From positions 1 to 64,000 of the forward strand of contig JAJYLH010000019.1 in the NCBI GenBank assembly GCA_021787845.1: a stretch of 64,000 nucleotides of DNA, written 5' to 3'. The translations under genes were made by a program, and so were the position numbers. Position 1 is the stretch's first letter; the number at the start of each line of letters is the position of its first letter. Shown in pieces: positions 4,054 to 50,572 of this stretch. The DNA comes from Myxococcales bacterium. Its GTDB lineage: Bacteria; Myxococcota; Myxococcia; Myxococcales; JAJYLH01. Below the pieces are notes generated by a model that was not told where the DNA came from, did not search any database, and saw only the letters and a program-made list of their open reading frames with translations.

Positions 4054-5500
4054 TCAGCACCTCCAGAGCGACGCCGCCAGGCACGAAGCAGGGATGGCCG
4101 ACGTCGTTGCGACGGCAGATCTCCTCGTCGCGGAAAGCATCGCCATAGAGCTCGTAAGCGATTGCGAGAGCGGGGAGGGTCTTCGCCGGCCTGAAAGAGC
4201 TGAGAGAGGGAAGCGTGCCCGCGGCGCTCTCGATGTGAGCGATGATCGCGGCCTTGAGGTCGAGGAGCGCCTGAAAGAGGTTGTCGCTTGCGACGCTCCC
4301 CTCGAGCGTTTCGGCGACAGAGACAACGTTGTCCCGAAACCCCTCCGCCTGATCGACGCTCTCGAAAACAAGATCGGGGAGGGCATCGGAAACGGCGCAT
4401 AGCGCTCCGATCGCGCAGGCGTCGGCGATGAGCTGGTCGTTCGACGCCTGCGTAACGGCAGTCGCTGACGCCGTGGAGGCCAGGGCCACCGGCGGCGCCG
4501 GCGCGAAGGTCGCGAGGAGAGCGAGGGCCGATTGGATGATCTTCTTATCCTGAGCCGATGCCGCGCTGCCCGATGGTAGAACGGGAGGGGAGAAGGATGA
4601 GGACGCCGCGGAAACAAGGGCCGACGATGAAGAACGCGTCGTCGAGGAGCTCCCAGATGCTTGCGCAGAATCCTGAGACGCGGCATCCGACTTCCGAGTC
4701 GCCTCGGCTGCGGCGGACGTCTTCAGCGCGTCGCCGGCGGCGGTGAAGAGTCCCCAGATTCCCAGCGCGAGCTGATAGGGATCTTCGATTAGGGACAAGA
4801 GGTTCCCGAGGAAGTCGCCGACGCTCAACTCCAGATCGTCGAGGACGCCGAGGATGGCTGCCTCCGCCCCCTCCCACGATGCGATCTTGTCCGCCGCGGC
4901 GGAGATGGCCTTTTCTACATCCGTCACGACCTCTGCGATCTCTCCTTTGACCGCGAGACGGTCCCGGAAGTCCGCGACGGCAGAAGGCGCGACGCCCGAG
5001 AACGTCGAGATGCTGTCCGGGACCGTGCCGCCATAGCTTATGGCCGTCGGCGCCCCGGGCTTTCCGATAGCCTGAAGGTTCGCGGCATTCCGCACCGCGG
5101 CCCCCGAATCGGTGATGACCCGAGGCGTCGGCTCGTTCCCGATCTCGATGAACTTGCAAGAGAACTTTGCGATACCGCCTTTGGCCGTCGACTCTCGAAT
5201 GCGCACCGGCCCGTCGAGAGCGACGACCAGCTCTCCAAGGAACGGATGGACCAGCTTGCCGGCGCCGGGCGTCTCGAGGGCCTCTCGAAGCTTGTCCCGC
5301 GCGTCCATGTAGGTCGGCCCGACGACTAGCAGATCGACGTCGAAACGAGGCGCGCGCTTGCCGAGGTCCTCGACCATCGGGACGCTTCGGAAGGGGAACT
5401 CGACGGCAGCCGTGCGCCGGCCGACCTCGGTGCTCGAGGTGTCGATGTAGAAGGCCGCGCCACGAAAGGACCCCGACCGAAGCTGGTCTCGCCAACTCAA
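4046..5500 (-). CDS. Mu N-like tail protein (DNA circularization N-terminal family, gp43)
   Basis: 484 aa starting MSWRDQLRSGSFRGAAFYID. The N-terminal ~150 residues match the DNA_circ_N family (GRRTAAVEFPFRSVPMVEDLG, ARFDVDLLVVGPTYMDARDKL by eye). The middle is Ala/Ser-rich and low complexity (residues about 290-350), followed by a helical end. In Mu this protein is a tail/baseplate component; the name dna circularization comes from work on phage APSE/P22-type relatives and should not be taken literally. It overlaps the tape measure stop by 4 bp. Confidence 0.86.
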   Translation of the reverse strand: MSWRDQLRSGSFRGAAFYIDTSSTEVGRRTAAVEFPFRSVPMVEDLGKRAPRFDVDLLVVGPTYMDARDKLREALETPGAGKLVHPFLGELVVALDGPVRIRESTAKGGIAKFSCKFIEIGNEPTPRVITDSGAAVRNAANLQAIGKPGAPTAISYGGTVPDSISTFSGVAPSAVADFRDRLAVKGEIAEVVTDVEKAISAAADKIASWEGAEAAILGVLDDLELSVGDFLGNLLSLIEDPYQLALGIWGLFTAAGDALKTSAAAEATRKSDAASQDSAQASGSSSTTRSSSSALVSAASSSFSPPVLPSGSAASAQDKKIIQSALALLATFAPAPPVALASTASATAVTQASNDQLIADACAIGALCAVSDALPDLVFESVDQAEGFRDNVVSVAETLEGSVASDNLFQALLDLKAAIIAHIESAAGTLPSLSSFRPAKTLPALAIAYELYGDAFRDEEICRRNDVGHPCFVPGGVALEVLSA

Positions 5501-29615: not shown

Positions 29616-31013
29616 TTAGAAGTCGGCCCCGGCTGCGCGACCTCGAGCCGCTGAAGCTCCTCGAATGCCGCCGCTGCCCGCCCGGCCTCTTCCAGATCCG
29701 GCGTCGATCTCGACCTGCTCGCCGATGTGCGCTGCCAGCTCCCCGGCGATATAGAGAGCGTTGTCGATACGGATGCCCTTCTTTCCGACCATCCGCGGCG
29801 CCATCTCCATCAGGAGCAGGTCGAGCGCCCTCTCGTTCGTGATGCGGTTGACCGGCTCGGTCCACTCGCTCGCGACCTGCCAGGGCGTCTTCCCGTTCAG
29901 TCCGGCATGTGGCCGGTGCGCATAGACGGCGTCCGTCCACTGGTCGCAAAACGCCTGCAGCTCCCGCGAAGTCGTCGACACCTCGACGACGTCGCCCCGA
30001 TCCATCAGCCGTTCGGCGAAGCTCTTCCGCGCGCGAATCGCCTGGCGCTCGGCGACGTTGTGGCCGATGAAGCCGGGCCGAAGCTCCAAGAGCCCGTGCG
30101 AGAACGTCCTGAAGTGGCGCTCGATATACGGCTTCTGCTCCGAGGCGAACGGGATACAGAAGATCTGCTCCACGCGGAGCGCCCGGAGCACGGTGGTCAG
30201 ATGGATCGAGGCGTAGTCCTGGCCGTTGTCGGTACGCGCGGCTTCAGGCACACCCCAGGCCAGCAGCGCCCGCCGGAAAAGCGTCGCCACCGCTGTCGCC
30301 TTGCTCGTCTTCGAGACGAGCAGCTTCAGCCGCCGCGAGTAGACGTCGATGACGCCGAGGATCGAATGGCGCCCATCGGCCAGCATGACGTCCGCCGGCG
30401 TCGAGTCAAGCTCCCAGAGCTCATTGAGGCGGTCGATCGTCGCGTCCGCGCTCCCAAATGCGGCCTGGAGCTTGCTCTTGTAGGCATCGGGGTTCGTCGC
30501 CCGGAGCCAGAGGGCGTGATTCTCCGCCTTCCAGCGAGCCATATAGACCCGGACGCGGCGCTCGGAGGTCCGGTCGGCGAGGCCCTTTGCTTCCAGGAAC
30601 TCCCACATCCGCGCCGGTCGAATCGCCGGCTGCTTCGAGAGCGCGCCGACAATCACCTGCCTCAGCTCCTCGTCCGTGTCGAATCGGCCTCGCCCGGCCC
30701 TGTTCCCGTAGCCGTCGGCGAATGCGGCTGGCGTCCCTTCCTGGGCTCGCCTGAGCTGCTTGAGGAGCCATGAACGACTCACGTGGGGCACGTACCGCCG
30801 CGTCTTCTCGTCGATTTCGATTGCCCCCGTGTTGTAGGCGGGGCAGTATTCCTTGGCCGCGCGCCTGATCGAGCTGCCGCTCGCTCCAAAAAATCGCTTG
30901 AAGTCCTGCGCCACCCGCGCGATCGCGCGCGCCCGCTCTTGTTTCCATGCCGGAAGCTGCCCGAAGGCGACCAGCGACTTCTCCTCGGCCGCAGCCGTCG
31001 GTTCGGGCGTCAT
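29616..31013 (-). CDS. DDE transposase (MuA-like), 3' end apparently frameshifted
   Basis: 465 aa in this frame from ATG 31013. Catalytic residues: D203 in WELDSTPAD, D262 in ARTDNGQDY and E298 in KPYIERHF. An HTH-like part SRSWLLKQLRRAQEGTPAAF (80-99) precedes the integrase core, and DNALYIAGELAAHIGEQVEI (417-436) starts the C-terminal beta barrel. From residue 438 the frame becomes Gly/Arg/Ala low-complexity with poor codon use, while the +1 frame continues with coding-like sequence. Mu A normally has a C-terminal MuB-interaction domain, so loss or displacement could impair transposition. There is no separate MuA N-terminal winged helix (Mu A is 663 aa). Confidence 0.88.
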   Translation of the reverse strand: MTPEPTAAAEEKSLVAFGQLPAWKQERARAIARVAQDFKRFFGASGSSIRRAAKEYCPAYNTGAIEIDEKTRRYVPHVSRSWLLKQLRRAQEGTPAAFADGYGNRAGRGRFDTDEELRQVIVGALSKQPAIRPARMWEFLEAKGLADRTSERRVRVYMARWKAENHALWLRATNPDAYKSKLQAAFGSADATIDRLNELWELDSTPADVMLADGRHSILGVIDVYSRRLKLLVSKTSKATAVATLFRRALLAWGVPEAARTDNGQDYASIHLTTVLRALRVEQIFCIPFASEQKPYIERHFRTFSHGLLELRPGFIGHNVAERQAIRARKSFAERLMDRGDVVEVSTTSRELQAFCDQWTDAVYAHRPHAGLNGKTPWQVASEWTEPVNRITNERALDLLLMEMAPRMVGKKGIRIDNALYIAGELAAHIGEQVEIDAGSGRGRAGSGGIRGASAARGRAAGADF

Positions 31014-31279
31014 CGCCCCGCCTCCGGCAGCCGCCACTCGCCGGCGATGAAGCGCGCCCCCATCGCATAGAGGTCCCGGTTGATGCCTTTTTGCCGCGCG
31101 GCCTCCGATCCGCTGTACATCGACGGCCAGCCGTCCTCGATGGCGAGGAACAAGTCCTCCGGCGCGCAGGGAAGCAGCCGGCGAAGGATCGCGGCGCGCC
31201 GCGCGAACGCGTAGAGCGGTTCGGTGATGTCGGCGACGGTTCCGGCGCCGGCGACGAGGTAGTCGTGGGCGGTGTTCAT
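31010..31279 (-). CDS. Hypothetical early phage protein
   Basis: 89 aa, MNTAHDYLVAGAGTVADITE, overlapping the transposase start by 4 bp and the previous stop by 4 bp. The middle has DLFLAIEDGWPSMYSGSEAA. Function unknown; translation is coupled to the transposase. Confidence 0.55.
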   Translation of the reverse strand: MNTAHDYLVAGAGTVADITEPLYAFARRAAILRRLLPCAPEDLFLAIEDGWPSMYSGSEAARQKGINRDLYAMGARFIAGEWRLPEAGR

Positions 31280-31512
31280 GCCGCCACCTCGGCCGCCAGC
31301 TCGGTGAGGTCGACGGTCGGCAGGTCGTTTTCGAGCGCGAGCTCGATGAGCATCTGGACGCGGGCGAGGCGCGCGAGAATCTCCGCGATGACTGCGCGAT
31401 CGGCCTCATCGACGCGCCCCTTCCACGCGCGCAGGTGGAACTCGGCCAGGTCGAGCCCGCCCGCGAGCGCGAAGGCGTTCTCGTCCGAGAGCCGGATCGT
31501 CAGCTCGCTCAT
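31276..31512 (-). CDS. Hypothetical helical protein, first gene of the transposase operon
   Basis: 78 aa from ATG 31512 (MSELTIRLSDENAFALAGGL), ending LENDLPTVDLTELAAEVAA. Helical and acidic. A hairpin with a T-run lies 22-52 bases upstream, so the gene is the first after a possible attenuator. Longer upstream frames are shadow sequence. Confidence 0.6.
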   Translation of the reverse strand: MSELTIRLSDENAFALAGGLDLAEFHLRAWKGRVDEADRAVIAEILARLARVQMLIELALENDLPTVDLTELAAEVAA

Positions 31513-38323: not shown

Positions 38324-39216
38324 TCGGCCGCCTTCGCCTCCTCGGCGGCCTTGGCGGCGGCCCTCTCCTGCTCCTTCTTCTCCTTGCGTTGCTTCTTCAC
38401 CTTGGCCCAGCGGCCGGCCTCGGAGACCGGCTGCGCCTTGCGGTACTTGGCGACGCGGGCGGACGATTGGATGGCGAGCTTCGCCTGGAGGAAGAAGTAG
38501 CGCGCCGCGGCGATGGCGGTGCACTCCCAGGCCATGACCGACTTCCGGTCGACGCCCGCATCGAGGCGGATGAACGGCGCGAGCTCGGCGAGCAGCGGCG
38601 CGATCATCTCATCGACGTAGGTCGCATCGAGCCCGGCGCTCTGGAGCCGCACGCGGTTGGGCGCGGCGTCGGGGAGCTCGTTCCCCTGCGCGTCGATCTG
38701 GAGAATGGTCAGCCGCTGCTGGCTCAGGCAATCGCCGACGGCGCGAGCGGCATTCTTGGCCTGCGACTTGACCCCGAGCGCGATCGCCAGCGGGTCGGCG
38801 TCGCCGAGACGGTCCTGGGCGACGGAGCGGGTACCGAGGAGGCGTTGCTTCGCGCGGGAGAGCAACGGCTTCGGCGTCGCGGGCACCTTGGCGGCAGCCT
38901 TCTTGCGCTGGCTCGGCATCGGGACGAGCTTGCCGCCCTCCTGCTTGAGCCGCGCGAGCGCCTCGAAGTGCGCCTCCGTCGTGCCGCGCCGCACCAGCGC
39001 TTCCCGGTCGGTCTTCGCGAGGTTCTGGATGGTCCCGAGGCGCCTGAGACAAGTCTTCTTGCCGGGAAAGTTCTTTCGCGTCTCTTGATCGCGCGAACCC
39101 TCCGCGCGCCAGCCGGCCAGGACGGATTCCGCCGTCGGTTCCGGCGGAGTCGGGCCGGCTTGCGGTGCCGGCTGGGGTACGACCGGCGGGTTGGACTTGT
39201 CTTCTTTTCGAGCCAT
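38317..39216 (-). CDS. 299-aa protein of unknown function
   Basis: ATG at 39216 (MARKEDKSNPPVVPQPAPQA). A Pro-rich N-terminus, a basic middle (MPSQRKKAAAKVPATPKPLL), an ordered helical section (DEMIAPLLAELAPFIRLDAG, MAWECTAIAAARYFFLQAKL) and a C-terminal Lys/Glu/Ala coiled tail (KKQRKEKKEQERAAAKAAEE). No family recognised; the basic ends suggest nucleic-acid contact. It lies directly downstream of the 21-bp array, which could carry its promoter. Frames extended upstream through the array are periodic shadows. Confidence 0.6.
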   Translation of the reverse strand: MARKEDKSNPPVVPQPAPQAGPTPPEPTAESVLAGWRAEGSRDQETRKNFPGKKTCLRRLGTIQNLAKTDREALVRRGTTEAHFEALARLKQEGGKLVPMPSQRKKAAAKVPATPKPLLSRAKQRLLGTRSVAQDRLGDADPLAIALGVKSQAKNAARAVGDCLSQQRLTILQIDAQGNELPDAAPNRVRLQSAGLDATYVDEMIAPLLAELAPFIRLDAGVDRKSVMAWECTAIAAARYFFLQAKLAIQSSARVAKYRKAQPVSEAGRWAKVKKQRKEKKEQERAAAKAAEEAKAAEP

Positions 39217-39353
39217 CGGAGGACCTCGCGCGCCGGAGCGGGCACCACGCCCGCAGCGACGTGCCGTAGTTTCGCATGATCGAGCCACTTGCGTCAAGAA
39301 AACGGGTCCTGGTGCGGCCGTCACCCGGATTCGTGTGCGCGATCGCCTGGCCT

Positions 39354-39633
39354 GTGCGCGCCAACGAAGCAGCCGTGCGCGGACCTCGATTACCGGTGCG
39401 TGACTATCAAGCAGTCGTGCGTTACCTTCGAGTTGTGGTGCGTGATAACCGACGAGCCGTGCGCGATCTGCAAGACATTGTGCGTGTCTTCCGGCCGCTT
39501 GTGCGTGATTTACTGGCTGTTGTGCGTTGTCATCGAAGTGCTGTGCTCTCTCATCAGGATGATGTGCGTGCAGGAGCTGTGACATGTGCGCGACCTCGAC
39601 GTCGTTGTGCGTAAAGGTCGGTAAAGTTATGCG
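39354..39633. repeat. 14-unit array with GTGCG every 21 bp
   Basis: GTGCG (or GTGCT/ATGCG) starts at 39354, 39375, 39396, 39417, 39438, 39459, 39480, 39501, 39522, 39543, 39564, 39586, 39607 and 39629; the first eleven are exactly 21 bp apart. The consensus extends weakly to GTGCGYGAYYT. The other 16 bases vary and are less GC-rich than the surroundings. Two more loose matches lie at 39312 and 39335. The spacing is two helical turns, so the motifs face one side of DNA. Confidence 0.85.
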
Positions 39634-39744
39634 CGATCGATAGCTAGTTGCCTCCGAGCGGCACCAAGTTGTAATGCCCACGAAGGTATCGGTACCTCGG
39701 CTCGACATCGTGGCACCGGCGCGCTCGCCTGTGCCAGCCACGAC

Positions 39745-39963
39745 CAAGGCTAGAGGGGGTATCGGCTTCGTTCAGGTTCGAGCCTTCAGCGAATATCCGC
39801 TCACCCTGAGGGGAGGCCGACGGTTCTTGGTCGGCCGGACTCGAAGGGCGGGCGGATATTCCCGCGCTCCGCTCGTCCTTCGAGTCCGCTCGCAAGGAGC
39901 GCTCGCTCCCCTCAGGATGAGCGGGGTGCGACCTGAACGAAGCCGATACCCCACAAGGCTAGA
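39745..39963. mobile_element. MITE-like element, 199 bp, with 10-bp target duplication
   Basis: CAAGGCTAGA at 39745-39754 and 39954-39963 flank an element with perfect 22-bp inverted ends (GGGGTATCGGCTTCGTTCAG plus GT at 39756; its complement ends at 39952). Inside are further inverted pairs GAATATCCGC / GCGGATATTC (39791, 39852) and GGACTCGAAGG / CCTTCGAGTCC (39837, 39877). It codes for nothing visible. Confidence 0.8.
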
Positions 39964-40068: not shown

Positions 40069-41115
40069 CTACTGCTTCGCGGCGGAGACAAACCTCTGGA
40101 GATTGGTGTTCCCGACGAGATGGTCCAAGGTTGCCAGGGTAAAGACCTTCCCCTGCGTCACCCGCAGGATGTCGCGCATGTCGTTGCGTCGCACGCCGAA
40201 CCCGCGTCCATCGATGCAGGCGACGACCTGAAAGGCTGGCTGCCCTTCGCGCAGGCGCTGGTCCCGCATCGCGCCGAGTCGCAGAATCCGCGCGACCTTG
40301 TCCCGCGCAGTGCCATCGTCGCTCGTGATCTTCGCCTCGATGATCACGGATGCGGCAGACGTCGTGGGAACAAAGAAATCAGGAGCTTGTTCAAAGCCGA
40401 GAACGCGTTCCGCGCGGCGGGTCTTCTGGTAGGTGATGCTCGCGTGCGCCAGGCGATCTTCGACCGCGTTCTCCATGATGTCACCAACGAGCCCCGAAAC
40501 AGCATCGCGATGGCTGGCGAACGGCCGACCGAGATAGCGTTCGTAGAGGAGCACCGGGTAGGGAACGTGAACCGATGCGACGAACCTGAGCGAATCGAGA
40601 CCGCGCGAGGTGTCCTCCTTGTCGAGCCGGTGGACCGTGTTGGCGGCAACGCTGGGCGCGCCACGGAGAATCTTCTCAACGGCCACGTCGATCAGCGCTT
40701 CGACACGCCGTAAGGTCAGACCGTTGTCCGCCTTGACGCGAGACATATACGCCCGGTCCGTGCGAACCATCCTGTCATTGCCACGTGCGGCGCCTTGGTC
40801 GACATCACTGCCCTGCTCGCTCCGTGCCAGTTCGGCCCATTCCGGAGGTGAAAGCCCGAGGATCGTACGCAGGACCAGGAACGAAAGCGAGTCTTCCTCC
40901 AGCGCCGACCAGACGCTTTCGGGTGAGAGACGTGCGAAGCTGGTCGTATGACGCTTGAGAACTTCGTAGGCATCCTGGAAGGCGGGATACGGAATGAACC
41001 CCTCTCCCTTCGGAAGCACCAGAAACTGTGACTGGAGGTCGGCAAAGGTGACGTTGACCATCTCCTCGATGCGCTCCTCCAACGTTGCCGGATCGAGCTC
41101 GTAGGGGCGCGGCAT
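40069..41115 (-). CDS. PD-(D/E)XK nuclease, putative restriction endonuclease
   Basis: 348 aa. The ATG at 41115 directly follows the TGA of the methylase gene. The helical N-terminal 240 residues are followed by EQAPDFFVP (D246) and SVIIEAKITSDDG (E260-x-K262), the classical D...ExK active site on a beta hairpin. The C-terminal part FQVVACIDGRGFGVRRNDMR completes the fold. Adjacency to a DNA methylase makes a type II restriction enzyme the likeliest role. Target site unknown. Confidence 0.78.
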   Translation of the reverse strand: MPRPYELDPATLEERIEEMVNVTFADLQSQFLVLPKGEGFIPYPAFQDAYEVLKRHTTSFARLSPESVWSALEEDSLSFLVLRTILGLSPPEWAELARSEQGSDVDQGAARGNDRMVRTDRAYMSRVKADNGLTLRRVEALIDVAVEKILRGAPSVAANTVHRLDKEDTSRGLDSLRFVASVHVPYPVLLYERYLGRPFASHRDAVSGLVGDIMENAVEDRLAHASITYQKTRRAERVLGFEQAPDFFVPTTSAASVIIEAKITSDDGTARDKVARILRLGAMRDQRLREGQPAFQVVACIDGRGFGVRRNDMRDILRVTQGKVFTLATLDHLVGNTNLQRFVSAAKQ

Positions 41116-43353
41116 TCAGGCATCCCTCCGGGTCGCAGTTCCAGCCGCGCCGAGCGCGCGCATCAATCTCTCCACGTCGCAGCGGACGGCGAGGGTCTCG
41201 AGCGTTCGACGCGCCAGCGACATCCGTTCCCTGAGCGGAGCCGCCGCGTCCCACGAAGGTCCCAACCTGCCAACCGCGATCCTCGCGAGGTGCCCCGCGA
41301 GAAGACATCGAAGATCACCGCGTGTGAGGCGCACTTCCGAATCGCGCATGGCGCGCATGTCCGCTTCCAGCGCGCGTCGGCAGGAGGCCGCGACCTCGAA
41401 TTCCAGAGAAGTCTGCCTGTCTTCCGTTCGAGAACGCAGCGTGCGCCGGCAGACGAAGATCGTGTCCAAGACCGACGAGCCAGTCCGCGCGATGTGAAGG
41501 GAAGCAGTCATCTCGGCGGCGGCCGGGAACGTCTTGGTGCAGGTCATCCGGGAATCCAGGATGGCCACGACCAAGGGCACATAGGCCGCTGGATCGTTGT
41601 GGTGGTACGTGAAGACGAACGGCGCGTTCGGCTTGAGCGCGTCGGCGTAGTGCTGGAACACCGCGGACAGTCCTTCGGTGAAGTGCTCGAGCCCGCGGCC
41701 GAGCGTCTCATTCCCGGTCAGCTCGCGGCTCGTCCTGGTCGTGGTACCGGCGAACTCAGAGAACTCGTGTCGCAGGCCCACACGAAGCCAGGCGAAACAG
41801 AAGTCCATCAGCTCAGCGTACTGCACGTTGTCAAAGTAGGGCGGGTCGGTGAAGACACCATCCAAGGAATTTCGAGGCAGCGGCAAATCCGTAGCGGGCG
41901 ACGCCTGGATGAGAGCCTGCGGGTCGAGCCCGCGGGGCAGCTCGTTGACGAGCGCCGCCGCGATGCGCTCGCCGGGAATCGGGACGAGCTTCTTGCGCCC
42001 GGCCACGTGCCGCGTCTCGAACGGCTGCCGGCAGTACTCCTTCGCCCGACGGTATTTCTCGATGAAGTGACGATAGGAACCCGAGCCGACGCGGGGAATC
42101 CCGAGCAGGTTGTTTTCGCATTGCACGAGGGCGACGGGGAATCCGTGAACGCTGAAGATGTCCTGGCACTTCAGCGCGTAGGTGTCGTACCGGCAGAGCA
42201 TGTTCTGATACCGCAAGAAGTCGGAGAACACCGTGAGCAAGGCATGACGAACCGCAGCGTCACGGACTTGCATCAGCCGCCGTAGCAACGTGCCGAGCCC
42301 GAAGAGTTGCCGGTCGCTGAACATCTGCCGGTACTTCGAGTACCCCCAGCGGTGCAGCCGGTCGCTCTCGTCACCCGGCGGGATGTCGTCGTCGGGAATC
42401 GGGAGATCCCTCGCGTCCGCCAGGAGCTTGGCAGCTCTGTCCGCGCGCTCGAGATCGCCCGCATCGGGCGCCTTGAAGAACCGACCCTGGTGCCCGCTCT
42501 TGCAGGTGTCGCAATGGTATTCCAACGCCCAAAGCCGGTGCCGGAAAGGCTCCTGTGCGTCCCCGCTCCCGACCGAGAACTTCCTCTGGCACTGCCAGCA
42601 TCGCAAGCTTCCGTGCCGGACGTTGCCCTCGACGTGTACGTCGCTCGAGCATCGCTTGCAGGCCGCTGGAGTGGCCAAGGTCGGAATCGTCTCGTACTCG
42701 TTGAGGTCCCCGCAAGCCGGGCAGGCAAGGACCGGCCGCGGATGCCGCTCGGCCTCGGCGAGCAGGTACCCTGGAAACAGGTCGTTCGCGGCTCCGCAGG
42801 CCGGGCACGCGGATACCTTCACCCAGACGAAGTACTTGACCGTCGCCCAGCGGCCACACTCCAGGCACCTGGTCCGATACAGATCGCCGATCACCTGTTC
42901 GACATCCGCGACGGCGGACTGCGCCTCCGCGGCGAACGCGCTCAGGTCGAGGTCGGCGAGCGATTGGCGGACGATCCAGAACGCCATCGGGTTGACGTCG
43001 GTCCCGATCGTGTGAAGCCCGAGGCGGTTCGCTTCGAACGTCGGCGTGCCCCCGCCCATGAACGGATCGGCGACAACGCCGTGGAGCCTGTGGGGTGAAA
43101 AGAACGAGGATGAAAGCGGCTCGTCGCCAGCGAACTCGGAAAGCAGCAGCGAGCGGAAGACAGTGCCGGGCCGACGCGCAAACCACTTGTGGATCCCGAT
43201 GACGGGGCGGTAGTTCTGCTGCACCTGCTTTTCCCGCATCGCGAGGCGGGTGACGAACGCCGCATCGAAGGCCGCTTCCAGCGTGCCGCCCGGTCCCTGG
43301 TCCGCCTGGCTGCCGAAAGCTGGCTTGGCCTCGACCGAGACGCTCTCCATCAT
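41116..43353 (-). CDS. Zn-ribbon adenine-type DNA methylase (COG1743-like)
   Basis: 745 aa from ATG 43353 (ATG 43350 is equally possible). Motif I DPFMGGGT is at 96-103 and the catalytic DPPY at 503-506, order I then IV. Between them lie six CxxC pairs (C163/166, C183/186, C211/214, C232/235, C252/255, C281/284), giving several zinc ribbons. The motifs indicate an N6-adenine (or N4-cytosine) methylase acting on DNA. It precedes the nuclease gene without a gap and follows the SMC gene by 136 bp on the same strand. Confidence 0.85.
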   Translation of the reverse strand: MMESVSVEAKPAFGSQADQGPGGTLEAAFDAAFVTRLAMREKQVQQNYRPVIGIHKWFARRPGTVFRSLLLSEFAGDEPLSSSFFSPHRLHGVVADPFMGGGTPTFEANRLGLHTIGTDVNPMAFWIVRQSLADLDLSAFAAEAQSAVADVEQVIGDLYRTRCLECGRWATVKYFVWVKVSACPACGAANDLFPGYLLAEAERHPRPVLACPACGDLNEYETIPTLATPAACKRCSSDVHVEGNVRHGSLRCWQCQRKFSVGSGDAQEPFRHRLWALEYHCDTCKSGHQGRFFKAPDAGDLERADRAAKLLADARDLPIPDDDIPPGDESDRLHRWGYSKYRQMFSDRQLFGLGTLLRRLMQVRDAAVRHALLTVFSDFLRYQNMLCRYDTYALKCQDIFSVHGFPVALVQCENNLLGIPRVGSGSYRHFIEKYRRAKEYCRQPFETRHVAGRKKLVPIPGERIAAALVNELPRGLDPQALIQASPATDLPLPRNSLDGVFTDPPYFDNVQYAELMDFCFAWLRVGLRHEFSEFAGTTTRTSRELTGNETLGRGLEHFTEGLSAVFQHYADALKPNAPFVFTYHHNDPAAYVPLVVAILDSRMTCTKTFPAAAEMTASLHIARTGSSVLDTIFVCRRTLRSRTEDRQTSLEFEVAASCRRALEADMRAMRDSEVRLTRGDLRCLLAGHLARIAVGRLGPSWDAAAPLRERMSLARRTLETLAVRCDVERLMRALGAAGTATRRDA

Positions 43354-43489
43354 CGCCCCCACGAGGCGGCCCGTCCGCCTGGGGAGAGCATAACTCGAGG
43401 GTCGGACACGCATCCGTCTCCGTCATCCGCGGCCCGCAGACGCAGCAAACGAAATGACCGGGACAACCGCGGATGGTACTGCATGCGTC

Positions 43490-46276
43490 CTACTTCCTGA
43501 TGAACACCGGGGCCGGGGCCTGGTCTTCGCTGGGCTTCTTCTTGCGCAGCGCGACGGTGAGGTGGCTCGGGTTGAAGACGTTGTGGTTGTGCGTCGTCGG
43601 GGTGGTGAGGATGAACTGGCTCTTGGTGGCCGAGAGGAAGTCGGCCACGTCGTCGATGCGTTCGACCGAGAGGTGCGCGAACGGCTCGTCGAGGATGAAG
43701 AAGCCGGTCGAGTCTTCGCTCCCGTCGGCGAAGGTCATCCCGAGGAGCAGGACCAGGCTTGTCAGTACCGACTGACCACCCGACAGGTCGGGGTCATCGA
43801 TGTTCACATAGTGCTTGCCGTCGTAGGCGACGCGAACCACGAGCCCCGCATGCTCCAGCGCGTCATCGTCGTCCGAAAGCCCGAGCGCCGGGACCTCGAT
43901 GTCGAACCCCGCCTTCTCCGACAGCCGCACCACCGACCGCCGATAGAACTCGACCGTCTGCTCGATGACCCGCTTGTAGCTCTTGCGCGCGAGCCCCAAC
44001 TCGTCCGCCCATCGTGCGTGCTCAGCCTTACGGAGATCCAGGAACGACTTGAACTCATCGAACTCCGCTTTGACCTTGTCGTACACCTCTTTGGCGGCGA
44101 GGTCGCGGCAGCCGGACCAATTGGTGACTTCCTCGTCCAGTCTCACGATGAGCGACTCGGCCACTTCCTTGGTCGGAATCGCTTCCAGGGCCTCCGGCGT
44201 GCGTCGTTCCGGCGGCAGATCGTCCTCCATGCGCCGCATCGTCTCCAATTCAGCGACTGCCTTGGTCCGTTGCGCCGGGAGCGTCCGCTCCAGGTCCGCG
44301 CGCTCCTGCTCCACGCGCTCGCGCTTCTCCGATAGCTCGCCGCGCTTGAGGGCCCGCTCCGACCGCGCCTTCTCGTAGACCTCGATGTGCCCGTCGTTCT
44401 CGATGATCTTTTCGGTGAAGCGGCGGCGTTCCTGGACCAGCTCGTCGCGGCGGGTGTTCTTGAACGCGAGCAGCGCCTCCTTCTCCCGCCATTCGGCGAG
44501 CTTGCGCTGGCGCGTCAGGCGCTGGGCCAGGTCATGGATGCTGCGCTCGGTCGCCTCCCGGTCGCGGGCGATCGCGTCGCGCTGTCCGGTCGCGCCGGGC
44601 AGCTCGATGTCCCTGATGACCTTGAGCCGTTCGCTCGCCGCGCTGCGCCCGCAGTAGAGCCGGTCGACCGCGGCGAACACCCCGCCGCGATGGTCTTGCT
44701 TGTACCCGTCGCGGGTCATCGAGGTCGCGTTCTTGCCGAGCTTCAGCCCCTCTTCCACCGAGTCGACCAGACGCATGCGCGAGAGGTTCTGGACAATCCA
44801 GTCGGGCAGATCGGCTCGCCCCAGCTCGGTCACCGCCAATGCGGTCCCGGCTGGCGCGTCGAGGGTGCGCGTCACCGGCTCGAACTCGCTGACGAAGTAC
44901 CGATACTTCTTCTGCCGCGCTATCTCTCGCGCCTTGAGACTGTCCTTCTTGTCGACGACGATCGCGAACCGCGACGCGCCCAGGGTGGACTCCACCGCCA
45001 CCTGCCAGGTCGGATCCTTGACCTCGATCATCTCCGCGACCAGGACGTGCTTCACTTGTTCCTGATCGAGGGCTCTCCGGATCTCGGCGACCTCTCGGGG
45101 GAAGACGATTCCCTTCTCGTTTTCCAACGACCGCGCCTCTTCGCCGAGCTGGAGGACCTTGTCGTGCGCTTCGTCGTACTGATTGGCGAGCTTGAGCGAG
45201 GTCTTGCGCGTCTCCTCCAGCTCCTTGGCCACCCGATCGCCGTCCTCGGGCGCGATGCTCGCCACCTCTTCCCGGAGCTTCTCCAGTCCCTCCAGCTCGC
45301 GGACGAGGCCACCGTACTCCAGGTCGTACTTCTCCTTCTCCTTGGCGAGCCGGCGGCTCGTCTCCCGCACCTGCGCGGTCGCGGTCAGGGAGTCCTGGTC
45401 GTCGCTCATCAGCCGCGCGATCTGATCATCGAGCGAGTCGCGCGTATCTTTCAGGGCCTTGAGCTTGTTCTCCTCGACCCCGATGAGGTCGTTCAGCTCC
45501 TGGGCCCGGCCCTTGATGTCTTTGTACGTCGCCGCCGGCAACGTCTGCGTCCGCAGCCGGTCCAGCTCCGTCACCTTGGCGTGATAGGTGTCCGCATCGA
45601 CCGCTCGCCGCTCGTTCTCGAGAACGTTGTGCTCCATCGCCAGCGCCTTCTGGGCCTGGACGAAGAGCTCCTTCTCGCTCGCGCGGTAGTTCTCCAGCGC
45701 GTCCGAGTAGCGATCGAGCGTCTGCTGGTCGCCCTGGATTTCCAGGAGGTACTTCAAGAGCTCGCGCGGGCTCTTCTCGCACAGCTTGTTGGTCTCCCCT
45801 TGCTCCAGCGCGAGAATCTTCAAGAGCGTCCGCGGCAGTCCCGCCGTGTGGAGGTTGCGTCCGTACTCCTCCGAGCCGGTCCACTTGTCCGCCGCCTGGA
45901 TGGACTCGGTAGACGCGTTGCCCGGGAGGATGGCAAAGCGCTTCTCCCAGGTGCCGCTCTTGTTCTCGAGGAGGCAGACCAGGGTCACCTCGTCGGTCGA
46001 GAAGCCGAGGTGGCGGAACGGTCGCGACCCGTGGCGCAGGTGGTTCGTGACCACGCCTTTGACCATCGCCACCCGGTCGCCCGAGCGCAGGTACTTGGAC
46101 ATCTTCCGCCCGGTGGAGAGTTGCTTGGCGCCCAAGAGGAGCCGCAGCGCATCGAGGAACGTGGTTTTCCCCGACCCGTTGGGACCGGCGAGCATGATGA
46201 TGCGCTCGTCGAACGGCAGCTCGAAGTGCGGCCAGTAGTCCCAGTTCATCAGCTCGATGGACTTGAAGGTGAACAT
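43490..46276 (-). CDS. SMC-family ATPase (JetC/MksB-like)
   Basis: 928 aa. Walker A GPNGSGKT at 31-38, ABC signature LSGGQ at 831-835, Walker B FFILDEP at 859-865. Two coiled-coil arms flank a hinge-like middle (HVLVAEMIEVKDPTWQVAVE, LGASRFAIVVDKKDS, about 405-580). The arms are shorter than in chromosomal SMC (about 1150 aa) or MukB (about 1490 aa). It follows kleisin-like and JetB-like genes, the order of Wadjet and Mks operons. It should form a loop-extruding or DNA-entrapping complex; defence versus chromosome role cannot be told from sequence. Confidence 0.88.
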   Translation of the reverse strand: MFTFKSIELMNWDYWPHFELPFDERIIMLAGPNGSGKTTFLDALRLLLGAKQLSTGRKMSKYLRSGDRVAMVKGVVTNHLRHGSRPFRHLGFSTDEVTLVCLLENKSGTWEKRFAILPGNASTESIQAADKWTGSEEYGRNLHTAGLPRTLLKILALEQGETNKLCEKSPRELLKYLLEIQGDQQTLDRYSDALENYRASEKELFVQAQKALAMEHNVLENERRAVDADTYHAKVTELDRLRTQTLPAATYKDIKGRAQELNDLIGVEENKLKALKDTRDSLDDQIARLMSDDQDSLTATAQVRETSRRLAKEKEKYDLEYGGLVRELEGLEKLREEVASIAPEDGDRVAKELEETRKTSLKLANQYDEAHDKVLQLGEEARSLENEKGIVFPREVAEIRRALDQEQVKHVLVAEMIEVKDPTWQVAVESTLGASRFAIVVDKKDSLKAREIARQKKYRYFVSEFEPVTRTLDAPAGTALAVTELGRADLPDWIVQNLSRMRLVDSVEEGLKLGKNATSMTRDGYKQDHRGGVFAAVDRLYCGRSAASERLKVIRDIELPGATGQRDAIARDREATERSIHDLAQRLTRQRKLAEWREKEALLAFKNTRRDELVQERRRFTEKIIENDGHIEVYEKARSERALKRGELSEKRERVEQERADLERTLPAQRTKAVAELETMRRMEDDLPPERRTPEALEAIPTKEVAESLIVRLDEEVTNWSGCRDLAAKEVYDKVKAEFDEFKSFLDLRKAEHARWADELGLARKSYKRVIEQTVEFYRRSVVRLSEKAGFDIEVPALGLSDDDDALEHAGLVVRVAYDGKHYVNIDDPDLSGGQSVLTSLVLLLGMTFADGSEDSTGFFILDEPFAHLSVERIDDVADFLSATKSQFILTTPTTHNHNVFNPSHLTVALRKKKPSEDQAPAPVFIRK

Positions 46277-46324
46277 CGTGTCCTCACAGATTCCGATTCG
46301 CGCATGGCGCGCAGATCGGGAGCT

Positions 46325-47068
46325 CTAGGTCTCTTCCGGCTCGCTGTCGCCGAGCTCGGCCAGCTCTTCCGGGGTCGGCGGCAGGTCCGGGTTGTCGTCC
46401 GGGGCCTCGTCGATTTCCGCCGACATGCCCGCGTACGGCGGTTCGCCCTTGCGGCCGAGCACGTCCCAGAGCGCGCTGTTCTTCAGCTTGATGGCCATCT
46501 GCTGGCCGTCGATCAAGAGATCGAGCAGCGGGCCTTCGGTGATGTGATCGAGCCTCGAGTACTCGATGAACCCATGTCGTTTGAGCTGGCTGAGATAGAT
46601 TTGCAGCTTGGCACCGCCGCACTTGCGGCCGAGCTCCGCCCGCAGCGCCGCCTCGCTCGTGAACACGTCGACGTCGGGCATCGGCTCGCTCGCGGGAAAC
46701 AGCGGCCGGACGTTGTCGCCGGGCTGCTCGCGCCGCTCCTGCGCCACCCGCTTCGGGAAGACGAGCTTCGCCCAGAGCACCACCAAGAGCGCGACCGCCG
46801 GCTTCTCCAGATTGAAGTTCGCCGCCCAGGACAGCGACGCGTCGCGCTCGATCTCGTCGGCCAGCCGCACCGCGAAGAACTTCGAGTAGTAGTTGTCGAC
46901 CAGGATCAGCCCGACCGTGCGCAGCCGGGCCTCGACCTCGCGCCGCAGATCGTCGTCGACGATGAGATCCTTGAAGTCGTTCTTCGCGATGTACGGCTTG
47001 ATCATCAGCCGCGAGCAGATTTCCTCCGCCCGCGAACGGCCTTCGACGACGATGGGGGTGTCATCCAT
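46325..47068 (-). CDS. MukE/JetB-like winged-helix (KITE) subunit
   Basis: 247 aa from ATG 47068, chosen because AGGG lies 6 bases upstream; the longer frame to 47134 begins in a REP repeat. Start MDDTPIVVEGRSRAEEICSR, then ARLRTVGLILVDNYYSKFFA, VALLVVLWAKLVFPKR and two winged-helix-like stretches (EAALRAELGRKCGGAKLQIY, LSQLKRHGFIEY). The C-terminus is acidic. It is the small subunit expected between kleisin and SMC. Confidence 0.75.
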   Translation of the reverse strand: MDDTPIVVEGRSRAEEICSRLMIKPYIAKNDFKDLIVDDDLRREVEARLRTVGLILVDNYYSKFFAVRLADEIERDASLSWAANFNLEKPAVALLVVLWAKLVFPKRVAQERREQPGDNVRPLFPASEPMPDVDVFTSEAALRAELGRKCGGAKLQIYLSQLKRHGFIEYSRLDHITEGPLLDLLIDGQQMAIKLKNSALWDVLGRKGEPPYAGMSAEIDEAPDDNPDLPPTPEELAELGDSEPEET

Positions 47069-47076
47069 GGGAATCC

Positions 47077-47679
47077 CTAGGTCGTGCGGTCGGAAGAGTT
47101 GGAGCCGGACACGTGAGTGTCCGGGTACAGGCACACCGCTCGCACTTGATCGACGCCGGACACGAGAGTGTCCGGGTTTGCCACTGCCACCAGCGACCCT
47201 CGGACGGTTCCAGGTGCGACCTCACCCTGGCCTTCCAAAACATGGGCAAGCACCGCGCGCAAGTCATCGGAGTCAACCACGATTCGCGTGCTGCCATTGC
47301 TGGTCCAAACCGGTCGGTTCTGTTTCGTCAGTCCAGCCTCACGCATCTTGCGCGTGGCCCATGCCTTGGCCGCTTGCATGATTCGCCACGACGGCACATC
47401 AGCGCCGACCAAAGCGTGCACATGCGCTTGCCGGACATTCACCACGCACAGCTCCCAACCGTAGTACTGGCATGTCGCTTCGATGGAGTTGGCACACGCA
47501 GCCCGTTGCTCCTCATCCAAGTACATCGGTGCAGCACGCAGGTTCTTGGCGCTGAACGTGTCGAGGGGGCCTTGTGGCTGCATCGCACTGTGAGTCTTCG
47601 CGCTTGCCCAACCTCGTTCATCGCCAGGCAGCCAAGTTCCGTAAGTGGTCCAGGTGAGGAAGTGAATCGTCGCTGGCAT
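47077..47679 (-). CDS. RAYT-type (IS200-like Y1 family) protein, catalytic Tyr replaced
   Basis: 200 aa from ATG 47679 with GGAGGTG 5 bases upstream. Family pattern MPATIHFLTWTTYGTWLPGD, WELCVVNVRQAHVHALVGAD (HVH = HUH motif) and VWTSNGSTRIVVDSDDLRAV. In relatives the catalytic Tyr is in a RYV-type motif followed by a Gly-Gln-Gly turn; here the sequence is LAHVLEGQGE, with His at that place. The last 30 residues read through REP DNA. It is flanked by REP sequences, as RAYTs usually are. The Tyr replacement makes activity doubtful. Confidence 0.8.
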   Translation of the reverse strand: MPATIHFLTWTTYGTWLPGDERGWASAKTHSAMQPQGPLDTFSAKNLRAAPMYLDEEQRAACANSIEATCQYYGWELCVVNVRQAHVHALVGADVPSWRIMQAAKAWATRKMREAGLTKQNRPVWTSNGSTRIVVDSDDLRAVLAHVLEGQGEVAPGTVRGSLVAVANPDTLVSGVDQVRAVCLYPDTHVSGSNSSDRTT

Positions 47680-47925
47680 CCGCACCTCCGGCCCGCCTAT
47701 CCGCGGGTTCAGCCACGGTACTCCGGGGGACGGACATGGTGCCTGTACCCGGACACTCACGTGTCCGGCTCCTACGGCGCTCGTACGCTCTGCCTGTACC
47801 CGGACACTCACGTGTCCGGCTCCAACGACGCTCGCACGCCCTGCCTGCACCCGGACACTCACGTGTCCGGCTCCAACGGCGCTCGCACGCTCTGCCTGTA
47901 CCCGGACACTCACGTGTCCGGCTCC
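47101..47925 (-). mobile_element. 825-bp RAYT/REP element inserted in the SMC operon
   Basis: A 32-bp REP unit at 47101-47132 is the exact reverse complement of units at 47741, 47792, 47843 and 47894. Thus the RAYT gene has one REP (plus a degenerate one near 47156) on one side and four on the other. Outer ends are therefore 32-bp inverted repeats. The element fills the gap between the kleisin-like and JetB-like genes. No target duplication is evident. Confidence 0.85.
47741..47925. repeat. Four tandem REP units, 51-bp period
   Basis: Units start at 47741, 47792, 47843 and 47894, each carrying ACCCGGACACTCACGTGTCC followed by GGCTCC. Within a unit GGACAC-TCAC-GTGTCC forms a hairpin. The 51-bp (17-codon) period keeps frames open on both strands, which creates false N-terminal extensions of the RAYT gene. 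Confidence 0.92.
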
Positions 47926-49262
47926 GTTTCTGGCAAGGTCGTCAACCTAGGCACAATCCATCCGCTGGTCATCTCGCTGGCGAACTCGCTATCGAGGCGG
48001 TCGCGCTCGTGATGATCGAACTCCACGTCGACCGGCAGGCTGGCGAGGATGCGTCCCGGTCCGGCGGCCTCGGGTGGCGCGTCAGTCTCCTCCATTCGTC
48101 CGCCGGCGAGCGCGAGGAGCGTGAAGCGATGCGCGGTCGTCGCCCAGTTGTCCTTGGTGACAAACTTCGACGCCCGGACCGATCGCCCTTCGGCGACCAC
48201 CTGTTTCAAGTCGATCACCAGCTCTTCCGCCGGCCCGCCGCCCGCCAGCTCGGGCTCGATGCTCTCTGCCGGCGCCGGATCGCTCCACCCGCGCCGCTCG
48301 TCGTCCGGTAGCTCCCGAACGCAGATCTCGTACTCCGCCTCCGACAGCATGTTGTCGACGATCACGAACTGCTGCTCGACTGGGAAGTGCAACACGCCGT
48401 CCGCCAGCGCCACCAGCGTCGCCACGTCGCTCCTCGCGAGGAACGCGGTGATGTCGCGCATCGACAGGCCGCCCTCGCCCAGATGGATGCGCCGCTTGCC
48501 GATGTCGTTGAGCGCCCGCTGCAGCGCGCTGACCCAGTGGTGCAGCTTCGAGAGCAGGTCGTGCGCCGCCCGGACCCGCTCGTGCTCCTCCGGCGTGTCC
48601 AGCGCGTACTTCTCCAAGACCTGCCGCGCCGCCTCCACCCAGGGCAGCGAGCTGTCGAGGAGCTTGCGCGCCTCGAGAATCGCGTGCTCGCTCTTCGAGT
48701 CGTACGCCCGCTCCATCTCCTCGCTGATCTTGGCGAGCTTGTTGCGCAGTTGGTCGAGCTGCGCCCGGGAGTCGAGGCCGTATTCCTTGGCGAGCTTGAG
48801 CGATTGCACGACGAGGCCCAGGTCGCCGGCGCGATGCGCGAGGTCGCCGAGGAGTCCGGTCAGCGCGGTCGCGGCTTCCCCGAGCGGCGTCACCGAATAG
48901 CGGCCGTCGTTGAACGCGAGCCAGCCGCCCCGCGCGAGTCGCCGGATGATGTCGCGCCGCGGCTCGTCGGCGAGGTGGCCGAACTTGTTCCCGAGCGTCT
49001 CCTGCGTCCAGCTCGTCTCCAGGTCCGAGCTGAGCGCGCGCATGACGTAGAGCCGCACCCAGAAGTCGTCCGGTCCGCCGAGGAGGAGCTCGCGCAAGAG
49101 CGGCTGGAACACGCGCACCGGCGCGATATCCGCGAGCGCCTGGATGTCCGGGGCGCCGACGCCGGGCGCGAGGTAGTCCTCGATCGGCTTCTGCCGGCTC
49201 TCCTCCGGCGACTCGACCGCTTCGTCTGCGCGAAGCGCGAGCACGTCCGCCGCGTCGCTCAT
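47910..49262 (-). CDS. Kleisin-like subunit (MksF/JetA-like)
   Basis: 450 aa from ATG 49262 (MSDAADVLALRADEAVESPE). N-terminal winged-helix part APVRVFQPLLRELLLGGPDD, YVMRALSSDLETSWTQETLG, KFGHLADEPRRDIIRRLARG; a long helical middle (RKLLDSSLPWVEAARQVLEK); beta end (TAHRFTLLALAGGRMEETD). The last codons and the stop (GAG CCG GAC ACG TGA) lie inside a REP unit, so the original C-terminus may have been replaced. It starts 14 bp after the glpB-like stop. Confidence 0.72.
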   Translation of the reverse strand: MSDAADVLALRADEAVESPEESRQKPIEDYLAPGVGAPDIQALADIAPVRVFQPLLRELLLGGPDDFWVRLYVMRALSSDLETSWTQETLGNKFGHLADEPRRDIIRRLARGGWLAFNDGRYSVTPLGEAATALTGLLGDLAHRAGDLGLVVQSLKLAKEYGLDSRAQLDQLRNKLAKISEEMERAYDSKSEHAILEARKLLDSSLPWVEAARQVLEKYALDTPEEHERVRAAHDLLSKLHHWVSALQRALNDIGKRRIHLGEGGLSMRDITAFLARSDVATLVALADGVLHFPVEQQFVIVDNMLSEAEYEICVRELPDDERRGWSDPAPAESIEPELAGGGPAEELVIDLKQVVAEGRSVRASKFVTKDNWATTAHRFTLLALAGGRMEETDAPPEAAGPGRILASLPVDVEFDHHERDRLDSEFASEMTSGWIVPRLTTLPETEPDT

Positions 49263-49276
49263 CGCCAAAGTCTCCT

Positions 49277-50572
49277 TCACCGTTCGCTCGAGCCGGTCGT
49301 TGCGCGCGAGAGGCTGGTCTTGGTCGCGGCGGCTTCGCCTGCGACGAGCGCCGTCACCGCAGCGACGCCGAGCCCGGTCGCATCCCGCGCCGCCTCGTAG
49401 CCACCGATGACCGCGCCCGCCGCGAAGAGGTTGTCGTAGACCGCTCGTTGCCCGTCGTCGACGGGTCGCATCCGCGCGTCGACCTGAACACCTGCGCGCA
49501 TCGCCGGTTGATCGTTCGCCGCGTGCTTGTCGAGCAGGTCGCCCGTCCACATGTCGCCCACGTCGCGGCCGTCGACGAAGACCGGCAGCCCGAAGACCGG
49601 CTCCCGGAACCGCTCTTGGTGCACGATGCCGCCGCCGAGGAACCGCCCGGTCGCGAGGACGAACGCGTCCGCCGACAGCTCGCGATCGTCGAGCAGGAGC
49701 TTGTCGATTCGCCCGGCGTTCGCGCTCGTCGACTTCACGTCGCCGATGACGACCGTGACGCCCGCCTCCATCAACCGATCGTTGAGCGCGCGGTCGAGCC
49801 GCAACCCCGCGATGGACGGCGGCGTGTTCATGAGCTCAGCGGCAGCGCTGAAGTTCATCGCGCACAACGCGTCGCAGACCGCGTCGGGATGATCGAAGCC
49901 CGCGGTCGGTAGCAGCACGTGCGTCGCACCGACTTCCTTCGCCGCCAGCGCGATGCGCGTCAACACCGCGTCCTTCGTCGGACCGTCGAGGAGCCGCGCG
50001 AGGTCCGCGAGCGCCGATTGCGGATCGAGTTCGAGCTTGACGTACACCTCGACCGCGTCGCGCCCTCCTGCCCGGAGGCCGTTCGTCACGAGCGACGGGT
50101 CGGTCGCCGCGTGGCCCACGATGCCGACGACGCCGATGCGCGCGTCCGACGGCCACGACGCGAGGTCCCCGCGAGCGATGCTGCCCTGCGCGAGCGCCGC
50201 CTCCTTCATCGCGCCGAGCGGCGTGACCAGCTCCAGGTTACGCGAGTCGTTGTCAGCGCCGCGAACCCCCAGCGCCGCAAGCTCCTCGACGAGCAACGCG
50301 CGCGCGCGGGAGAGCGCGTCCGCGAGGGACGATCCCAGGCACGCGTACGGGTGTCGCGGATGCTCGCGCGCGATGACCTGCGCGGCCCGGGGCATCGCCA
50401 GGCGGCGGCCCTCCTGGTCCACGCCCGCCGCGAAGTCGAACGCGCCCGACGAGACCGACGTCGCCCCCAGCGCGCGCCGTACGAGCGTTACCTCGGCGCC
50501 CTTGCGACGCGCCGCAAGGGCCGACAGCGCTCCCGCTGCCCCTCCTCCGATGACGATCACCCGACCGGCCAT
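49277..50572 (-). CDS. glpB: Anaerobic glycerol-3-phosphate dehydrogenase subunit B-like flavoprotein
   Basis: 431 aa from ATG 50572 (MAGRVIVIGGGAAGALSALA), a Rossmann dinucleotide fold with GxGxxG. GlpB-type blocks follow: GATSVSSGAFDFAAG, FSAAAELMNTPPSIAGLRLD, FVLATGRFLGGGI and DNLFAAGAVIGGYEAARDAT. In GlpABC, GlpB holds FMN and links the dehydrogenase to the membrane anchor; glpA and glpC are not next to it here. A GTG or longer start at 50614 is possible. The SMC operon begins 14 bp later, which could share transcription. Confidence 0.8.
   Translation of the reverse strand: MAGRVIVIGGGAAGALSALAARRKGAEVTLVRRALGATSVSSGAFDFAAGVDQEGRRLAMPRAAQVIAREHPRHPYACLGSSLADALSRARALLVEELAALGVRGADNDSRNLELVTPLGAMKEAALAQGSIARGDLASWPSDARIGVVGIVGHAATDPSLVTNGLRAGGRDAVEVYVKLELDPQSALADLARLLDGPTKDAVLTRIALAAKEVGATHVLLPTAGFDHPDAVCDALCAMNFSAAAELMNTPPSIAGLRLDRALNDRLMEAGVTVVIGDVKSTSANAGRIDKLLLDDRELSADAFVLATGRFLGGGIVHQERFREPVFGLPVFVDGRDVGDMWTGDLLDKHAANDQPAMRAGVQVDARMRPVDDGQRAVYDNLFAAGAVIGGYEAARDATGLGVAAVTALVAGEAAATKTSLSRATTGSSER

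Follow-up and report, generated by a model that had tools for sequence, protein, structure and literature searches.

A 21-bp phased array with a conserved GTGCGY core belongs to a genome-wide class of intergenic arrays with steps of 21 or 42 bp in a Myxococcales bacterium

Introduction

Tandem repeats are found in both the coding and the non-coding DNA of bacteria, and for the non-coding ones we know of no evident reason why one period should be preferred over another. A locus in the genome of a Myxococcales bacterium, in which a five-base word returns every 21 bp while the DNA between its copies has diverged, raises the question of what keeps such a pattern in place, and whether it is peculiar to this locus. 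The window, that is, the whole stretch of 64,000 nucleotides that was analysed, had been described in a first-pass annotation as containing a single unusual array of this kind, helically phased, acting at the level of DNA and tied to the neighbouring gene. Here, the geometry and coding potential of the array, its neighbourhood and its occurrence elsewhere are described, and the possible explanations are weighed.

Geometry and sequence of the array

The whole array, as delimited by a unit table, column counts, lag identities and codon scores, occupies positions 39312 to 39650 on the plus strand (about 340 bp) and is a non-coding, 21-bp phased series of about 16 units with a GTGCGY core and degenerate fillers of 16 bp. 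On this strand, GTGCG starts at 39312, 39335, 39354, 39375, 39396, 39417, 39438, 39459, and 39480, and further cores start at 39501, 39522, 39543 (which reads GTGCT), 39564, 39586, 39607, and 39629 (ATGCG); on the minus strand, the core is RCGCAC. According to the unit table, 11 units are in exact 21-bp register (39354 to 39584; ten steps between the starts at 39354 and 39564), and three more, the last of which is the ATGCG unit, follow after steps of 22, 21, and 22 bp (39586 to 39650). Two additional cores lie upstream (39312 to 39353), the one at 39312 in phase, at a distance of 42 bp from 39354, and the one at 39335 off phase, 19 bp before it. The 11 exactly spaced starts and the three later motifs 21 to 22 bp apart of the first-pass annotation are thus borne out, even though one of the 11 reads GTGCT, and the 14 units that it counted are all present, but it missed the two upstream copies.

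Conservation is concentrated in the core, in whose columns 13 to 14 of 14 units agree, versus a mean of 7.25 of 14 in the columns of the filler. The base that follows GTGCG (+5) is a pyrimidine in all 15 units scored, which gives the core GTGCGY, and the filler shows weak preferences for G at +6 and C at +12 (11 of 15 units each). The fillers had been regarded as almost unrelated, and their mean pairwise identity of 0.356 is indeed low; however, it exceeds the 0.247 obtained with shuffled letters, and the column preferences also speak against a complete lack of relationship. The identity of the array with itself is 0.45 at lag 21 and 0.46 at lag 42, compared with an expected 0.26, and its G+C content falls to 0.54–0.56 from the 0.675 of the window, as had been noticed before. 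No other 5-mer makes a comparable phased run anywhere in the window at periods from 10 to 59. With 88 GTGCG on the plus strand of the 64 kb, nine of them would fall in exact phase with a probability of about 4e-14, all words, periods, and starts being allowed for, and a chance product is excluded. The program TRF does not list the array even at a score of 30. Internal half-units of 10.5 bp were considered but are not claimed here; several arrays show elevated values at lags 10 and 11, but the harmonic test, run over 19 units, gave a weak signal (p 0.04 for purines, no significance for A+T).

Coding potential and other types of element

Three reading frames are open across much of the array, one of them being the frame of the adjacent 299-residue protein, P0001, which continues through the array as an open reading frame of 476 codons. 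Coding potential was judged by codon log-odds trained on the genes of the same genome, with windows of 100 codons from genes as the reference. The six frames of the array score between -1.17 and -0.11 per codon (-0.43 for the frame continuous with P0001), whereas genes average 0.418, with 0.175 at the 5th percentile. The array is, therefore, non-coding DNA, as first proposed, and none of the six frames has the codon usage expected of the heptad-repeat protein that had been named as the observation which would overturn this view.

An RNA element was ruled out by the fold and Rfam searches: neither strand folds better than its shuffles (z 0.89 and 0.94), and no Rfam family lies in the array, the only hits being sub-threshold hairpin matches on a neighbouring palindrome. 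The array is not a CRISPR either, a point on which the first-pass annotation was right, since such loci were taken to require repeats of at least 23 bp, unique spacers of at least 20 bp, and cas genes, and here the core spans 5 to 6 bp, the filler 16 bp, and the flanking proteins tested include no cas-type match. The sizes of the units likewise rule out a microsatellite, again as it had stated. A minisatellite (VNTR) in the sense of near-identical units does not describe the array, with its filler identity of 0.356. A search limited to promoters of the sigma-70 type found none between 39150 and 40100.

Genomic neighbourhood and the 299-residue protein

The array sits between two genes on the minus strand. 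On one side is the gene for P0001 (38317 to 39216), a basic orphan protein of 299 residues whose start codon, at 39216, is 96 bp from the array, so that the earlier placement of the array upstream of a basic protein gene of no known family is correct. On the other side is the gene for a 348-residue protein (40069 to 41115), also of no known family, whose stop codon is 419 bp from the array and which lies next to a DUF1156-type methylase gene. Between this gene and the array, and separate from the latter, is a palindromic, MITE-like dispersed repeat (39756 to 39952) with perfect 22-bp terminal inverted repeats, GGGGTATCGGCTTCGTTCAGGT; it has 68 BLAST matches in the genome, many of which represent both strands of one copy. 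The minus-strand gene run from 40069 to 49280, which includes the DUF1156-type DNA methylase (41116 to 43413) and an SMC/JetC-like ATPase (43490 to 46276), is probably a defence island with unnamed partners, and within it a 51-bp tandem repeat with CCGGACACTCACGTGTCCGG palindromes is found at 47740 to 47925 (3.6 copies, 94% alike). Further away, positions 29616 to 31409 encode a 597-residue protein with rve and Mu-transposase C-terminal domains, which matches models of TnsB (type V-K) and IS481.

Searches of Pfam, NCBIfam, and PADLOC return no match for P0001, and it has no relatives in named genome contigs, in phages, or in the other genomes of the class (147 searched). Its predicted fold has a mean pLDDT of 44, a confidence too low to judge the structure. 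Within its own genome it has one paralogue (contig C73, 90029 to 90853; 57% identical), and directly upstream of this gene there is also a 21-bp array, of 16 to 17 units, the unit of which, CCAACCGACCAAGACCTCGCG, is unrelated to that of the window. The same unit makes up an array at C153:35215, where no gene related to P0001 is adjacent. These two arrays, at distant intergenic sites (L031, 5516 to 5896, on C73; L053, 15215 to 15520, on C153), are about 88% identical, and outside them there is almost no homology. The proposed tie between the array and the 299-residue gene is not upheld, since the paralogue's array is built from an unrelated unit that recurs without any relative of the gene.

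A genome-wide class of arrays with steps of 21 or 42 bp

Because the array upstream of the paralogue has the same step and an unrelated unit, 1.79 Mb of the same genome (about 29%) was surveyed for non-coding tandem arrays with a period of at least 10 and at least four copies. Part of this sample had been picked for GTGCG arrays, but most of it had not, including nearly all of contig C153 (417 kb). The periods found in non-coding DNA were 20 (one array), 21 (12), 22 (three), 41 (five), 42 (two), and 43 (two), as well as 24, 25, 66, 71, and 83, which places 26 of 30 arrays within 1 bp of the multiples 21, 42, or 84, a separate 9-bp set being left out (binomial p 3e-17 versus uniform periods from 10 to 84). 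In coding arrays, the period is a multiple of 3 in 14 of 15 cases. An independent scan for phased conserved columns again gave 21 as the leading non-coding period. The array of the window, with its step of 21, its peaks at lags 21 and 42, and its position in a non-coding gap, belongs to this class, and the idea of a single unusual array gives way to that of a genome-wide one. The set left out comprises about 25 short arrays of a 9-bp unit (CCGATCGGT and its shifts) in the non-coding DNA of the 1.79 Mb, examples being L050 4006 to 4055 and L031 5472 to 5506.

The units of the class differ in sequence, and several unit families occur at two or more loci. Once the 15 comparisons made are allowed for, the profile of the window array matches no other array beyond column-shuffled controls. 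No copy of the array exists elsewhere in the genome, nor did the relatives searched yield a convincing one. GTGCG at a 21-bp phase is also seen in other arrays, on contigs C10, C19, C146, C148, and C152. A universal GTGCG core was nevertheless rejected, for the arrays on C6, C13, and C153, found without a search for GTGCG, have none and do not fit the profile of the window array. The closest parallel to the window array in the genome is that at C146:7522-8100 (L137), a 21-bp array of about 27 units in which a core, GCGCAG, is kept across strongly different units, some of which contain TTGCGCAGTTAGC. Another 21-bp array is part of a dispersed element of about 430 bp that is present at two loci in opposite orientation (L044, 2360 to 2773; L126, C6:25288-25720).

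Homogeneous 21-bp arrays of 8 to 15 units are common in the genome, and arrays grade into degenerate edges. They occur in every kind of gap, with no preference for divergent, convergent, or co-directional genes. The orientation of the flanking genes follows the background and so gives no hint that the class acts at promoters, a role that was rejected. Of 67 contig ends, 11 have an array within 500 bp, compared with 0.8 expected; the assembly thus breaks at arrays, and any count of them is rough. Simple scaling gives approximately 120 per genome, which would put the intergenic arrays with a step of 21 or 42, differing in sequence, at perhaps a hundred.

Genes for DNA methylases, restriction enzymes, or AbiEii-type proteins are often found beside arrays (contigs C4, C18, C29, C32, and C148, and the window), and HsdM, type ISP, Eco57I-like, and type III genes flank several of them. 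In the sampled DNA, which is biased in this regard, 5/7 methylase-type genes are within about 5 kb of an array, versus 12% of genes, whereas outside it only about one in ten methylase-type genes has an array within 1.5 kb. A link between arrays and restriction-modification genes is suggestive.

Arrays in other genomes and in viral contigs

Within the same order, two genomes of family f9 (G008 and G014) contain 21-bp arrays of 14 to 28 units; the same test classes those of G008 as non-coding, and that of G014 was called partly coding. Samples of 80 to 200 kb from five other families have almost no such arrays, and none was found in 1.39 Mb around secY from other, mostly deltaproteobacterial genomes, where the DNA is gene-dense and few would be expected. 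In viral contigs, a search for the same pattern returned 21 stretches, mostly homogeneous repeats, none of which equals the window array in both length and contrast between core and filler. Two of the viral contigs, L288 and L300, have the same five-unit, 21-bp phased array, AGG-GTGCG-AA, on the reverse strand (first core at 5254 and 11366, respectively), with A+T-rich fillers that are 47% alike and a geometry that resembles that of the window array.

Possible origins and functions

We tentatively favour, as the likeliest single account, a putative phased protein-binding array in which the core and the helical phase are kept while the filler drifts. In its favour are a contrast between core and filler that uniform decay does not give, the maintenance of phase, and the presence of a second array with a kept core at C146:7522-8100. 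The non-coding scores of all six frames, the lack of an RNA fold or Rfam family, the period bias of the class, and the precedent of BvgA~P also speak for it. When the uniform decay of an ancestral 21-mer was simulated at four divergences, which bracket the filler conservation seen, five adjacent columns as conserved as the core arose in none of 3000 simulations at each; core conservation thus exceeds uniform decay under a simple model, one without rate variation or gene conversion. Moreover, there is no net insertion or deletion over ten consecutive steps despite a filler identity of 0.356, which, going by the general expectation for indel rates, suggests that the spacing is constrained. A candidate DNA-binding protein would dock on each GTGCGY core, its copies would sit on one face of the helix (21 bp being two turns), and they may bind cooperatively along about 340 bp. 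The output might be silencing, the organisation of the nucleoid or of a domain, or regulation of the downstream gene.

The main rival comes close behind and is a serious contender: the array may be an old, functionless, decayed minisatellite, one patch of which happened to remain uniform owing to late conversion or duplication, the 21-bp steps being produced in this genome by slippage or recombination owing to the helical pitch. It draws on the abundance of homogeneous 21-bp arrays of 8 to 15 units in intergenic gaps of all orientations, on their gradation into degenerate edges, on the difference of sequence among loci, and on a filler identity that is above chance. What it does not readily account for is the sharpness of the core, a contrast of 13–14 versus 7.25 of 14 that uniform decay does not reach, and a phase held over ten steps in spite of heavy divergence.

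Binding by one sequence-specific protein, whatever its merits for the window array, cannot explain all the arrays of the class, because no unit or core is common to them. The step being all that the arrays have in common, a cause in the geometry of DNA is to be expected, so that either arrays arise in two-turn steps or an agent that coats DNA keeps them. It is conceivable, if rather unlikely, that a dedicated process in this lineage builds and maintains the arrays, perhaps a hundred or more, which are unrelated in sequence and nearly all of which have a step of 21 or 42 bp. Such a process could be a nucleoid-coating or domain-boundary protein that reads phase and not sequence, or a copying enzyme advancing two turns at a time, and the array of the window would then be a locus at which a specific core became fixed within a two-turn grammar.

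That the array is the operator or recognition array of the 299-residue protein, which would then bind in front of the gene that encodes it, is improbable. The protein is basic, and both members of its family in the genome have a 21-bp array 96 to 134 bp upstream of the start, compared with a background of 15 of 1269 genes (1.2%) with such an array within 300 bp upstream. Nevertheless, the two upstream arrays have no unit in common, the paralogue's unit makes an array at C153 with no gene relative, and the family turned up in no other genome among the 147 of the class that were searched, even though genomes of f9 have 21-bp arrays; with a mean pLDDT of 44, the predicted fold is too uncertain to be weighed.

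Still less probable is an iteron or a centromere-like array (Rep or ParR type) that an integrated replicon has left behind. The geometry is alike, with direct repeats about two turns apart and a conserved core, and mobile DNA is near (the TnsB/IS481-type transposase and the MITE-like repeat). However, no Rep or Par gene was found among the flanking proteins tested, P0001 and two neighbours being of no known family, and the genome has perhaps a hundred arrays of different sequence. Known iterons, in addition, keep most of a unit of about 17–22 bp, and only 5 to 6 columns are conserved here.

Equally remote is the proposal that the array codes for a peptide of heptad repeats or for additional N-terminal residues of the 299-residue protein (21 bp being seven codons), which has in its favour the open minus-strand frame and some 3-base periodicity in the A+T of the consensus unit, and against it the codon scores, the frame shifts caused by the 19-, 22-, and 22-bp steps, the periods of 20, 22, 41, and 43 within the class, and the lack of Pfam matches for the open reading frames.

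Comparison with known systems

At the ptx promoter of Bordetella, BvgA~P binds on the same face of the DNA every 22 bp, at weak, degenerate sites; there are six such sites, which head-to-head dimers occupy immediately in front of a known promoter (PMC7250471). The array of the window resembles this arrangement in its adjacent, degenerate units at two-turn spacing and differs from it in having about 16 direct repeats and a near-invariant core.

Two plasmid systems are similar in geometry. Iterons are direct repeats of about 17 to 22 bp at steps of 21 to 22 bp, one face of which is read by a protein; they keep most of the unit and lie with the rep gene. The array shares the direct repeats and the step of about two turns, but it keeps only 5 to 6 bases, and a search of the flanking proteins brought up no rep gene. 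ParR plasmid centromeres are tandem direct repeats as well, coated by a small DNA-binding protein; more of their unit is conserved, and they are accompanied by their genes. No parM or parR gene was found next to the array, unlike in these centromeres, and the genome has many unrelated arrays.

The intergenic minisatellites (VNTR loci) of bacteria are also tandem arrays of about ten units and of varying homogeneity. The class described here differs from them in that unrelated units share a period quantised at 21 and 42 bp, and the window array in that its core is sharply kept. A description of quantised 21-bp intergenic arrays in bacteria was not found in the open-access literature. That most arrays lie at two-turn multiples, whatever their sequence, suggests that DNA geometry shapes either their origin or the binding to them, and the shared step of 21 or 42 bases points to a common process or to a DNA-coating protein, as yet hypothetical. 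The array of the window is best filed as a degenerate member of this two-turn-stepped intergenic class, itself a variant of the bacterial minisatellites, and its combination of a kept core and a drifting filler makes it a good site at which to seek a binding protein.
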